Made by a program: the position numbers and the translations under genes. DNA of 64,000 bases from Candidatus Tectomicrobia bacterium (GTDB taxonomy: Bacteria > UBA8248), in contig JACPUR010000037.1 in assembly GCA_016192135.1 (NCBI GenBank), forward strand, positions 54,535 through 118,534, given 5' to 3'. Positions 3,115-41,591 of this stretch are shown piece by piece; the first letter of the stretch is position 1, and every line of letters begins with the position of its first letter. A model generated the notes under the pieces. The model was given only the letters and a program-made list of their open reading frames with translations. It did not search any database and was not told the DNA's origin.

Positions 3115-4875
3115 TTGAGCACCAAAGCGAAGCAACCCATTCCCATCAAATCGTCCAGGATCTCGGGCGCCGAGATCATCTACCGCTCCCTCGAGCGCGA
3201 GGGCGTGAAGTACGTCTTCGGCCATCCGGGGGCGGTTCTCCTGACCCTGCTGGATCTCTTTCTCAAGAAGCACGACGTCCGGCACATCCTCACCCGCCAC
3301 GAGCAATGCGCCGCCCACATGGCCGAGGGCTACGCCCGGGCGAGCGGCGGGGTGGGCGTCTGCCTCGTCACCTCGGGGCCCGGCGCGACCAACCTCATCA
3401 CCGGCATCACCGACGCCTACATGGACTCCATCCCCATCGTCTGCCTGACGGGCCAGGTGTCCACCGCCATGGTGGGCAACGACGCCTTCCAGGAAGCCGA
3501 CATCGTGGGGATGACCCGCACCGTCACGAAGCACAGCTACCTCGTGAGGCGCACGGCGGACCTCCCCCGGGCGCTCCAGGAGGCCTTCTACATCGCCCGC
3601 ACGGGGCGGCCCGGGCCCGTCCTCGTGGACATCCCCAAGGACGTGCTCCTGGGCGAGGCCGCCTTCGATCTGCCCGAGGAGCCGGACATCCGGGGCTACA
3701 AGCCCACCACGCGCGGGCACCCGCGCCAGATCGAAAAGGTGGCGGCGGCCATCGCCGAGGCGAAGCAGCCCATCCTCTACGTGGGCGGGGGGGCCATCCA
3801 CGCCGAAGCCCACGTGGAGATACTGAAGCTCGCCGAGACGGCGGACATCCCCGTGACCTACACCCTGCTGGGCGCGGGCTCCTTCCCCAGCGCGCACCCG
3901 CTCTCGCTCGGCATGCTCGGGATGCACGGCACGGCCTACGCCAACTTCGCCGTGTGCGAATGCGACCTGCTCATCGCCGTCGGGGCCCGCTTCGACGACC
4001 GGGTGACGGGCAAGCTCTCGGAATTCGCCTCCCGGGCCAAGATCATCCACATCGACATCGACCCCACCGCCATCGGCAAGAACAAGCACGCCGACATCCC
4101 CGTGGTGGGCGACGCCCGCCTGGTGCTCCACGAGCTCAACAAGCTCCTGAAGGCGCAGGAGCGCCCCCTCTGGCGCAAGCGCGTCGACAAGCTCAAGGAA
4201 GACTACCCCCTCGTCTTCGACGAGCAGCGCTCGCCCATCAAGCCCCAGGACGCCATCCTCACCCTGAGCCAGGAGGTGGGCGACCGGGCCATCATCACGA
4301 CCGAGGTGGGCCAGCACCAGATGTGGGCGGCCCAGTTCTATAACTTCACCTTCCCCCGCCAGTTCATCTCCTCGGGCGGGCTCGGCACCATGGGCTTCGG
4401 CTTCCCGGCCGCCATCGGCGCCGCCCTGGCGCGGCCCGACAAGCTGGCCATCGACATCGCCGGGGACGGGAGTTTCCAGATGGTGATGCAGGAGTTGGCG
4501 ACGGCGATGCAGTACGGCATCCCGGCCAAGGTCTTCCTGCTGAACAACGCCTCGCTCGGCATGGTCCGGCAGTGGCAGGACCTCTTCATGGATCGCCGCT
4601 TCAGCGAGGTGGGCCTGGAGGTCTCGCCCGACTACGTCAAGCTGGCCGAGGCCTTCGGCGCCTCGGGCCTGCGCATCACCGACCGGGAGGAGCTGCGCCC
4701 CGCCATCCGGAAGATGATCGAGACGCCGGGCCCCTTCATCCTCGACGTGGTGGTGGACCCGGACGAGCTGGTCTTCCCGATGGTGCCCGCCGGTGCGGCG
4801 CTCAAGGACATGATCGTCCGCGACGGCCGCAAGCCGAGCCTCAGCGGCAAGCTCAGCGCCCTGCCGGACAACTAG
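3115..4875 (+). CDS. ilvB: Acetolactate synthase large subunit, copy 1
   Basis: ThDP-, FAD- and Mg-dependent enzyme joining two pyruvates (or pyruvate and 2-ketobutyrate) in the first common step of Val/Leu/Ile synthesis. The catalytic glutamate is in LTRHEQCAAHMAEGYARASG. The ThDP/Mg motif is AGDGSFQMVMQELATAMQYG with downstream LLNN. LGMVRQWQDLF carries the tryptophan associated with 2-ketobutyrate preference. TTG 3115 is chosen as start because GGAGGAAA (3103-3110) sits at the right distance; an in-frame ATG at 3091 lacks a ribosome-binding site. Eleven bases separate it from a second, clearly related large-subunit gene. Confidence 0.93.
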   Translation: MSTKAKQPIPIKSSRISGAEIIYRSLEREGVKYVFGHPGAVLLTLLDLFLKKHDVRHILTRHEQCAAHMAEGYARASGGVGVCLVTSGPGATNLITGITDAYMDSIPIVCLTGQVSTAMVGNDAFQEADIVGMTRTVTKHSYLVRRTADLPRALQEAFYIARTGRPGPVLVDIPKDVLLGEAAFDLPEEPDIRGYKPTTRGHPRQIEKVAAAIAEAKQPILYVGGGAIHAEAHVEILKLAETADIPVTYTLLGAGSFPSAHPLSLGMLGMHGTAYANFAVCECDLLIAVGARFDDRVTGKLSEFASRAKIIHIDIDPTAIGKNKHADIPVVGDARLVLHELNKLLKAQERPLWRKRVDKLKEDYPLVFDEQRSPIKPQDAILTLSQEVGDRAIITTEVGQHQMWAAQFYNFTFPRQFISSGGLGTMGFGFPAAIGAALARPDKLAIDIAGDGSFQMVMQELATAMQYGIPAKVFLLNNASLGMVRQWQDLFMDRRFSEVGLEVSPDYVKLAEAFGASGLRITDREELRPAIRKMIETPGPFILDVVVDPDELVFPMVPAGAALKDMIVRDGRKPSLSGKLSALPDN

Positions 4876-4886
4876 GAGAAACGGAC

Positions 4887-6577
<1,691 letters not shown>

Positions 6578-39718: not shown

Positions 39719-39799
39719 ATGATTCTTCGCGTTGACCCTCTGACTGTCATCGCGCTGCTCGGCGTCGCGGTGGCGCTTGTGGCGGTAAGCGCCCGCTAG
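39719..39799 (+). CDS. 26-residue single-helix microprotein, copy 1
   Basis: A tiny ORF of 27 codons including the stop. A good ribosome-binding site AAGGAGAG lies about six bases before the ATG. The peptide starts MILRVD, continues as an uninterrupted hydrophobic helix (VIALLGVAVALVAVSA) and ends in Arg. It should insert in the membrane with charged residues at both ends. A second ORF of identical length and closely related sequence lies 54 bases downstream. No known microprotein family was recognised. Confidence 0.6.
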   Translation: MILRVDPLTVIALLGVAVALVAVSAR

Positions 39800-39853: not shown

Positions 39854-39934
39854 ATGATACTGCGCGTTGATGCATTGCTCGTCATCGCCGTGCTCGGCAT
39901 CGCGGTCGCCATCGTGGCACTGGCCACGCGCTAG
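39854..39934 (+). CDS. 26-residue single-helix microprotein, copy 2
   Basis: Same length and design as the preceding ORF, starting MILRVD, with hydrophobic VIAVLGIAVAIVALAT and a final Arg. A GGGAGG ribosome-binding site lies six bases upstream. By hand alignment 18 of 26 residues are identical and the rest are mostly conservative (Leu/Val, Val/Ile, Ser/Ala). About eight codons differ only silently. This pattern suggests selection on the protein, making both ORFs likely real. Confidence 0.6.
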   Translation: MILRVDALLVIAVLGIAVAIVALATR

Positions 39935-40250
39935 TAAGGCCGCCCGCCTTCGGATTTGAGGGCCGGCCTCGCCTCGATGAAGAGGTGAGGGGGGGGTGCT
40001 TCGCGCCGAAAAGCCCTCGCCGCGGAGCGGCCCGCCCCCGGCGCTCTTGGGCCGCGCGGCGGGCACCGGATTCCCGCCGGATTCGCCTGGTGCCGGAGGC
40101 GGACTCGACCTCCCCTAATGGGCTTGCTCCCGGAATCTGGGCGGAGGCCGATCCTTGCAAATCTTCCAGCTCATGTAAGATTTGCAAGGATATTTGCGGA
40201 TTTTTCGGTTTATCCTTGTATTTCTTCCATCAGATGGATAAAATACAAGG
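39935..40250. other. Intergenic region before the DUF4143 ATPase with two matched hairpins
   Basis: About 316 bases without a gene. The first 200 are GC-rich. The last 100 are AT-rich and carry two 41-base dyads (listed separately). A weak promoter (TTGCGG at 40194-40199, 17 bases, TGTATT) may sit between or within the dyads. Confidence 0.5.
40151..40191. repeat. Hairpin/dyad 1 before DUF4143 ATPase
   Basis: Perfect 15-bp inverted repeat: ATCCTTGCAAATCTT (40151-40165) and AAGATTTGCAAGGAT (40177-40191) with an 11-base loop. It is the same total length (41 bases) as dyad 2, and its outer seven pairs are identical to that dyad. Confidence 0.85.
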
Positions 40251-40252
40251 AT
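40212..40252. repeat. Hairpin/dyad 2 overlapping the ATPase start
   Basis: 12-bp arms ATCCTTGTATTT (40212-40223) and AAATACAAGGAT (40241-40252), with five further inner pairs beyond two mismatches. The right arm includes the first two bases of the ATPase ATG. Compared with dyad 1, stem positions 8, 10 and 11 differ on both strands so that pairing is kept. Confidence 0.85.
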
Positions 40253-41423
40253 GATAGACCGGCGGATCAGGGAAAAGGTCAAGCAAGCTCTGGCCTATCA
40301 GGCCGCCGTGGCCATCATCGGGCCGCGGCAAGTGGGGAAAACCACCCTCGCCCTCGAAATCGGGAGCGAGACGGGCGCGACCTATCTCGATCTCGAAGAC
40401 CGGACGGATCGGGAAAAGCTGAGCGACCCGAAGCTGTTCCTCGAACGCTACGAGGACAGCCTCGTCATCCTGGACGAGATCCACCGCGTGCCGGAATTGT
40501 TCCAGGACCTAAGAGGCATCATCGACCGGGGGCGCCGCAAGGGAAAACGGACCGGGCGCTTCCTCGTGCTCGGCTCGGCCTCCATCGACCTGTTGCGGCA
40601 GTCCGGCGAAAGCCTGGCGGGCCGGATCGCCTACGTGGACATGGGGCCGCTCGATATTCTCGAAGTGCCCGCAGGCGCGGACGCCCTCAATACGCTCTGG
40701 GTGCGCGGCGGGTATCCCGACAGCTACCTCGCCCCGGACGACGAGCGGAGCCTTCAAATCCGCAAGGATTTCATCCGAACCTACCTCCAGCGGGACGTAG
40801 GGTTGTTCGCGCCGCGCCTTCCGGCGGAGACGCTGGAGCGGCTCTGGACGATGCTGGCGCACAGCCAGGGCAGTCTTCTCAATGCGTCACGCCTGGCGAG
40901 CGGCCTCGGCGTCAGCACCCAGACCGTGACGCGCTATATCGATCTTCTCGCGGACCTTTTGCTTGTGCGCCGCCTGCCGCCCTTCCGCGCCAATATCGGC
41001 AAGCGCCTGGTGAAGTCGCCCAAGACCTATGTGCGGGACAGCGGCCTGGTCCACGCCCTGCTCGGCATTGCGGATCACAACGCCCTGGCGGGCCACCCCG
41101 TGGTCGGCGCGAGTTGGGAGGGCTTCGTGATCGAGAATCTTCTGGCGGCGGCCCCGCCCCGGACCATGGCGAGCTTTTACCGCACCTCCGCGGGCGCGGA
41201 AATCGACCTCGTGCTCGAGCTTCCGGGCAAGCGCGGCCTCTGGGCCATCGAGATCAAGCGCGGACTCTCGGCGAGCCCCGGCAAGGGATTCCATAACGCC
41301 CGGGAGGACCTGAAGCCGAAGCGATCCTTCGTCGTCTACTCGGGCGAGGAACACCACCCGGCGGCCAAGGGCGTCGAGGCCATCGGCCTCCGCGAAATGG
41401 CGTCGCTGCTGGCGGAGGGGTGA
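40251..41423 (+). CDS. AAA-type ATP-binding protein with DUF4143 domain
   Basis: A 390-residue ATPase. The N-terminal AAA_14-type domain has Walker A IGPRQVGKTTL and Walker B SLVILDEIHRVPE. The arginine-rich middle has LVLGSASIDLLRQSGESLAG. The C-terminal DUF4143 part includes an HTH-like stretch (NASRLASGLGVSTQTVTRY) and a PD-(D/E)XK-like end (AGAEIDLVLELPGKRGLWAI with EIKRG). These widespread genes have no established function. The ATG at 40251 overlaps dyad 2 and has no spaced ribosome-binding site, so expression may be controlled there. A tRNA-Leu gene follows on the other strand. Confidence 0.85.
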   Translation: MIDRRIREKVKQALAYQAAVAIIGPRQVGKTTLALEIGSETGATYLDLEDRTDREKLSDPKLFLERYEDSLVILDEIHRVPELFQDLRGIIDRGRRKGKRTGRFLVLGSASIDLLRQSGESLAGRIAYVDMGPLDILEVPAGADALNTLWVRGGYPDSYLAPDDERSLQIRKDFIRTYLQRDVGLFAPRLPAETLERLWTMLAHSQGSLLNASRLASGLGVSTQTVTRYIDLLADLLLVRRLPPFRANIGKRLVKSPKTYVRDSGLVHALLGIADHNALAGHPVVGASWEGFVIENLLAAAPPRTMASFYRTSAGAEIDLVLELPGKRGLWAIEIKRGLSASPGKGFHNAREDLKPKRSFVVYSGEEHHPAAKGVEAIGLREMASLLAEG

Positions 41424-41505: not shown

Positions 41506-41591
41506 TGGTGCCGGAGGGGGGAATCGAACCCCCATGGGCTTGCGCCCGGCGGATTTTGAGTCCGCTGCGTCTACCGTTCCGCCACTCCGGC
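41506..41591 (-). tRNA. tRNA-Leu (anticodon CAA)
   Basis: 86 bases on the minus strand with a 7-bp acceptor stem GCCGGAG / CTCCGGC, then A and encoded CCA (41506-41508). The anticodon stem GCGGA / TCCGC encloses loop CTCAAAA, giving anticodon CAA for UUG codons. The T-arm GGGGGTTCGATTCCCCC is standard, and the long variable arm marks a class II tRNA. Confidence 0.95.

Follow-up and report, generated by a model that had tools for sequence, protein, structure and literature searches.

The DNA methyltransferase M.SsoII (PMC3978073) and the restriction endonuclease-C protein fusions (PMC3850674) are catalytic proteins with a DNA-reading region of their own that regulates the system to which they belong, an arrangement that suits mobile, potentially toxic genes. 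In type II toxin-antitoxin systems (PMC4803016), which often are carried on plasmids, a palindrome in the promoter is bound by the product of the gene that it controls. The WYL/wHTH defence regulators BrxR (PMC9122601, PMC9122589) and CapW (PMC9122588) use a winged helix to read inverted repeats in the promoters of defence genes. Here we describe a locus that shares these features, found in a 64,000-nucleotide stretch of DNA from a Candidatus Tectomicrobia bacterium (the window), where two dyads precede the gene for an ATPase. On the evidence of sequence comparison, we consider it probable (about 0.83) that the ATPase recognises the dyads as operators of its gene and through them represses its own promoter. 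Unlike M.SsoII and the endonuclease-C fusions, the ATPase combines a STAND-like AAA domain with a winged helix-turn-helix (HTH) and a PD-(D/E)XK-like domain and has no methyltransferase or partner gene; its proposed operator extends over the entire promoter of a gene predicted to be leaderless, and the operator code varies with residue 224 of the protein. Unlike type II toxin-antitoxin systems, the locus consists of one gene, and no antitoxin neighbour was found in 86 loci. Unlike BrxR and CapW, which are encoded by separate regulator genes, the ATPase would be regulator and effector in one protein.

Pfam analysis of the window protein revealed DUF4143 (PF13635; E = 1.9e-46) and AAA_14 (PF13173; E = 5.6e-26) domains, which scored 158.2 bits (curated cut-off, 28.1) and 91.5 bits (cut-off, 27), respectively; the protein is a member of the AAA_14-DUF4143 family (PF13173 plus PF13635; COG1373). 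Residues G24, G29-K30-T31, D75-E76, E290, D319 and K336 are invariant in 54 sequences, and E334 is nearly so; the Walker A/B and PD-(D/E)XK-type residues are intact in the window protein. An AlphaFold model (pLDDT 91.7) has HTH helices at residues 192 to 204, 212 to 219 and 223 to 235. A PDB sequence search gave generic ATPase matches only. At the level of structure, residues 1 to 272 (AAA plus winged helix) have the fold of STAND ATPases, the best matches being PABY2304 (2qen; Z = 17.0) and SSO1545 (2fna; Z = 15.9), followed by entries for AVAST5, a plant NLR (RPP1) and CED-4. In NLR and CED-4 proteins the winged helix is a regulatory part and is not known to read DNA, whereas that of the ATPase appears to read a specific operator; the comparison concerns the fold alone.

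Seven PADLOC models for PDC-S01 matched the window protein (best E = 1.6e-92). PDC-S01 is reported to rank fourth in frequency among (candidate) defence systems of prokaryotes. It was detected 29,494 times in bacteria and 9,986 times in archaea, no experimental validation is noted for it, and most such candidate families await validation (PMC12988326). The product of the window gene, which is the sole family member in its genome, is thus a candidate phage-defence protein of a very widespread, uncharacterised kind. A search of the literature available without subscription found no paper on the regulation of the PDC-S01/DUF4143 family.

The first-pass annotation of the window had reported two matched 41-base dyads with starts 61 bases apart, and both were found as described (Table 1). 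We designate the proximal dyad O1 and the distal dyad O2. Both have the form ATCCTTG...CAAGGAT, with identical outer arms. The number of such arms expected by chance in the window is 0.00, and dinucleotide-preserving shuffles of the window never matched them. Reading of the sequence also bore out the compensatory changes claimed for stem positions 8, 10 and 11, where both partners are swapped between the dyads (C-G to T-A once, A-T to T-A twice). Stem positions 13 and 14 are unpaired in O1 and paired in O2. Also borne out was the claim that the second dyad overlaps an ATG with no spaced Shine-Dalgarno motif: O1 extends two bases into the ATG (40251 to 40253), and a Shine-Dalgarno-like motif was present upstream of only 1 of 160 homologs. 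The offsets of 61 and 52 disagree on a clear helical phase between the dyads, so we make no claim about phasing.

Table 1. Features of the ATPase locus, in window coordinates
Feature	Position	Strand	Remarks
Dyad 1, distal, auxiliary operator O2 (predicted)	40151..40191	+	41 nt; without -10 element
Dyad 2, proximal, main operator O1 (predicted)	40212..40252	+	41 nt; inner arms TCCA/TGGA; abuts and overlaps ATG
-35 element TTGTAT	40216..40221	+	Within left arm of O1; TTG at -35 to -33 in most homologs
CC of left inner half-site (TCCA)	40227..40228	+	Predicted reader Q224/R228
GG of right inner half-site (TGGA)	40236..40237	+	Class covariation with recognition helix
-10 element TAAAAT	40239..40244	+	17 bp past -35; where O1 loses symmetry
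Predicted transcription start (A of ATG)	40251..40251	+	7 nt from -10; without Shine-Dalgarno
ATPase, AAA_14 - winged HTH - DUF4143 (PD-(D/E)XK-like)	40251..41423	+	390 aa; Pfam, PADLOC PDC-S01, AlphaFold
HTH codons, residues 192-235	40824..40955	+	Model helices; HTH_11 match
Recognition helix codons, residues 223-235	40917..40955	+	Q224 40920-40922, R228 40932-40934; top covariation columns

Further inspection of O1 revealed a sigma70-type promoter inside the dyad (TTGNNN, a 17-bp spacer and TAnnnT). With the A of the ATG numbered 0, the conserved elements are TTG (-35 to -33) and TAnnnT (-12 to -7): among the 110 homologs that carry the CAAGGAT arm at the ATG, both elements occur at the set spacing in 52 on the coding strand, versus 11 on the mirror strand. 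O1 departs from symmetry exactly at -12 (T) and -11 (A), the first two bases of its -10 element. From the distance between this element and the ATG, together with the absence of a Shine-Dalgarno motif, we infer a leaderless start. As the -35 and -10 elements lie inside the dyad, the main transcript should begin at the ATG, and the ATPase mRNA likely is leaderless with the hairpin absent from it.

The position of the promoter bears on another proposal of the first-pass annotation, namely, that the dyads are RNA switches hiding the start codon in the mRNA until temperature, a ligand or a protein releases it. As RNA, dyads 1 and 2 fold very stably (-21.6 and -19.6 kcal/mol; z = -6.9 and -6.4, or about -7), the stem of the second takes in the A and T of the ATG, covariation maintains pairing, and a hairpin could form in read-through transcripts from upstream. 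A main mRNA beginning at the ATG would not contain it, however. Furthermore, RNA stems tolerate G·U, yet no excess of G·T was found in stem cells of the relatives' dyads (98 G·T versus 113 A·C); Rfam matches were to tRNA only, with no family for the dyads; and the inner arm follows an HTH residue of the protein, as described below. An RNA switch is very unlikely on these grounds, and we rejected it as the main reading because of the promoter position, the lack of G·T excess and the lack of an Rfam family.

The spread of the dyad was assessed in a near set of 80 loci with 61 to 86% identity, drawn from proteobacteria, Acidobacteriota, Gemmatimonadota, Verrucomicrobia, Nitrospirota and others, to which plasmid copies were added. 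Most near relatives (60 to 86% identity) have a dyad whose right end falls on the ATG; its consensus is ATCCTTGCAAATTnAAA-N8-TTTTAATATGCAAGGATG. The mean dyad score over 85 homologs was 10.1, compared with 5.5 for shuffled sequence, 5.3 within the gene and 5.5 farther upstream, and 55 of the 85 dyads outscored all 20 of their own shuffles. The absence of similar dyads near relatives' genes, named beforehand as the result that would count against the first-pass annotation, was not what we observed: an ATG-abutting dyad is present in most relatives across many phyla. A clear dyad at the ATG is absent in a few (L065, L073, L141 and L142). Of 25 distant relatives (27 to 49% identity), 14 outscored 20 shuffles. 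Their dyads frequently are unrelated in sequence, and several relatives at 30 to 49% identity keep such a dyad; the copy on a Moraxella plasmid (30% identity) has 21-bp arms, and a Runella copy (31% identity) has a dyad abutting the ATG. The distal dyad is a minority trait, found in the window and in L003, L004, L015, L083 and L120, and by eye also in L006, L065 and L073. Within the bacterium's own order a match was obtained in 4 of 18 genomes, two of these at only 70 to 71%, and unrelated proteobacteria carry copies of the ATPase gene with 84 to 86% identity. This patchy spread is consistent with horizontal transfer.

In order to describe covariation within the dyad, 90 distinct dyads were compared. 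The outer pairs are near-fixed, and the inner pairs (-26 to -22 with -16 to -12) vary yet remain complementary. At pair -24/-14, for example, Watson-Crick cells numbered 71 versus 37 expected (A-T, 48; C-G, 14; G-C, 8). Double-changed cells totalled 166; 1,000 column shuffles gave 86 on average and 109 at most, and pairings slid by 1 to 3 bases gave 65 to 114. The check for covariation in relatives' upstream regions that had been proposed at the outset thus came out in favour of paired change in the inner arms. The accompanying claim of selection on the paired form stands as regards the symmetry; this most likely stems from a protein that is itself symmetric and sits on the DNA, and not from RNA pairing.

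The inner arms were then grouped into classes and compared with every column of the protein alignment by mutual information. Operators of Q224 proteins have TCC/GGA inner arms, those of K224 proteins GGA/TCC, and those of P224 proteins AAA/TTT. Residue 224, which comes second in the recognition helix of the AlphaFold model, was the top column in the first run (z = 30.9; next column, 14.8). In the training set, all 17 cases of CC/GG arms belonged to Q224 proteins and none to another residue, K224 went with GG/CC in 6 of 7, and P224 went with neither in 53. Seven Q224 rows fell outside the strict class; by eye, each of these either retains a half-site or does not fit the register. The class rule was fixed before 69 further relatives were fetched as a held-out set, in which Q224 went with CC/GG in 7 of 8 cases and K224 with GG/CC in 18 of 24; the class-calling code was made register-tolerant only after the held-out sequences had been viewed. 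Some Q224 or K224 rows have a single matching half-site or lie off register. Residue 224 was the leading column whichever set was used (training, z = 33; held-out, z = 17; combined, z = 61, with a runner-up of 26.5). When the dyad was resolved by position, offsets 4 to 6 pointed to residue 224, offset 4 also to residue 228, offsets 6 to 7 to residues 222/223 and offset 13 to residue 227; in the model, all of these residues belong to the turn or the recognition helix. The distal dyads of L003, L004, L083 and L120 obey the same class rule, though they are separate from the ATG; that of L015 breaks it.

Shared ancestry was addressed with a neutral control, in which the three-state operator class was evolved under a fitted Markov model in 3,000 simulations on a tree built without the HTH columns. 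None of the 3,000 simulations reached the observed value of residue 224 in any of the 358 columns, and residues 222, 228 and 227 likewise were among those with the lowest simulation p-values. As many as 33 of the 358 columns had p < 0.01, which indicates that some shared ancestry remains in the covariation signal. Strictly independent phylogenetic contrasts on well-supported branches were all in the expected direction, with none opposite, and were too few for significance (p = 0.125 to 0.5). Within the dyad, conservation is highest in the outer arms (TCCTTGCA). These sit roughly one turn of the helix farther from the axis than the inner arms and, residue 227 excepted, show no covariation with the recognition helix; a different region of the protein, or a second pair of subunits, may read them.

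The placement of the operator was surveyed with a strict pattern and a control pattern in 369 genomes of one class. The strict pattern gave 11 sites and the control none. Ten of the 11 sites end exactly at family genes, and the eleventh precedes a relative with a broken reading frame. A wider regulon was rejected, since all 11 strict sites in the 369 genomes lie at relatives of the ATPase gene. A looser pattern applied to the genome from which the window comes matched O1 only.

Promoter palindromes usually are bound by dedicated repressors, of which BrxR and CapW are examples, and the dyad might accordingly be the operator of a different regulator encoded by the host or by a neighbouring gene. 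This is less probable still than an RNA switch. No neighbour family occurs in more than 6 of 86 loci, the commonest being another DUF4143 gene, so there is no conserved partner among these loci; the dyad accompanies the gene across many phyla and plasmids; and the inner-arm class is predicted by the ATPase's own recognition helix.

The gene itself is patchy in distribution and also occurs on plasmids, an imperfect copy of the 3' half of a tRNA-Leu gene flanks the window unit, and in a few loci direct repeats of 34 to 57 bp flank the gene; all of this would suit dyads that are ends or target sites (for recombination or hairpin transposition) of a mobile element carrying the ATPase gene. Such an element would not explain why the dyad is found on the 5' side only, tied to the ATG and the promoter rather than to the flanking repeats, or why its inner bases follow the recognition helix, and flanking repeats were detected in just 8 of 156 loci (control, 1). 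We regard mobile-element ends as the least probable of the alternatives and rejected them because there is no fixed 3' dyad and flanking repeats are rare.

Since the inner arms track the gene's own recognition helix and the strict operator pattern was found only at these genes in the 369 genomes, we favour the reading of the dyads as operators of the ATPase itself. Its computed support consists of the conservation of the dyad, the embedded promoter, the covariation within the dyad and between dyad and helix, and the near-exclusive placement. Two properties of an autogenous operator were found, namely, a symmetric site over the gene's own promoter and, by computational covariation, a DNA-reading specificity of the gene product that matches the site. 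Two of the functions first suggested for the dyads, operators for autoregulation and targets of the ATPase itself, thereby appear to be one and the same, with strong support from the helix covariation and the near-exclusive placement. The ATPase would bind the dyad via its winged HTH, presumably as a symmetric dimer or larger assembly, with recognition-helix residues 222 to 224, 227 and 228 reading the inner arms about 4 to 7 bp on each side of the axis. Because O1 covers the region from the -35 element through the start codon, bound protein should exclude RNA polymerase and so would repress the leaderless gene. O2, which is missing from most relatives, would be an extra binding site. Self-recognition would give the winged HTH of PDC-S01 a job, makes residue 224 versus inner arm a simple reading rule, offers a concrete and cheap assay for PDC-S01 (bind or break the dyad) and raises the question of which signal derepresses the gene.

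A more tentative extension, which we think doubtful but worth stating, is that PDC-S01 is sensor, regulator and effector in a single gene. A trigger such as invading DNA or phage might alter the ATP state of the STAND-like ATPase sitting as a repressor on its own promoter; the promoter would be freed, a leaderless burst of expression would follow, and the nuclease-like domain would be released. Residue 224 would set a private operator for each copy, and divergence of these operators would let many copies share a genome without cross-talk. Family members reach up to 14 in one genome: fourteen and thirteen DUF4143 relatives, respectively, were seen in two genomes, and the three operators read from these genomes (L124, L130 and L115) differ from one another. 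Such paralogs provide a natural test of insulation.

We also considered TT_P0211, a distant Thermus member of the family that is reported to be 6.6-fold upregulated with plasmid DNA in the presence of Argonaute (PMC4406477). After reading its upstream region, we set it aside as a supporting case because it is too distant. At three of the more distant DUF4143 genes (L101, L102 and L104), direct repeats such as CTTTCAATTGGTC precede the gene in place of a dyad, which suggests another mode of self-recognition.

A search of viruses for solo dyads matched 23 stretches, none with this ATPase gene. These were judged to be unrelated or chance matches, the 39-bp ones being mostly the hairpin of one phage lineage and the others lying within coding sequence. 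In five members of that lineage, the 39-bp TCCTTG...CAAGGA hairpin lies between scaffold-like and capsid genes and has varying inner arms; it probably is unrelated to the ATPase dyads.

Inspection of the surroundings revealed a tRNA-Leu(CAA) gene (41506 to 41591, minus strand) on the 3' side of the ATPase gene and an imperfect copy of its 3' half just upstream of the dyads (40088 to 40133 versus 41506 to 41549; alignment score 57, compared with at most 38 in 300 shuffles). The dyads and the ATPase gene thus sit between tRNA repeats, and O1, O2 and the gene resemble a tiny integrated unit without an integrase. Relatives keep the tRNA-cyclase order with other genes on the 3' side of the tRNA. 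In Fodinicurvata the homologous ATPase gene (at 4001) has a tRNA-Leu(CAA) gene (5247 to 5331) immediately downstream in the same orientation, with no upstream repeat. Exact direct repeats of the kind mentioned above (34 to 57 bp) flank the gene in five loci (L072, L080, L159, L187 and L189), which suggests recent insertion or duplication of the ATPase unit there. Upstream of the dyads, the window contains two tandem hydrophobic open reading frames of 26 amino acids (39719 to 39799, MILRVDPLTVIALLGVAVALVAVSAR; 39854 to 39934, MILRVDALLVIAVLGIAVAIVALATR), each with a Shine-Dalgarno-like motif. Their only DNA matches were partial (27 bp), in one relative, and they possibly encode single-helix membrane microproteins.
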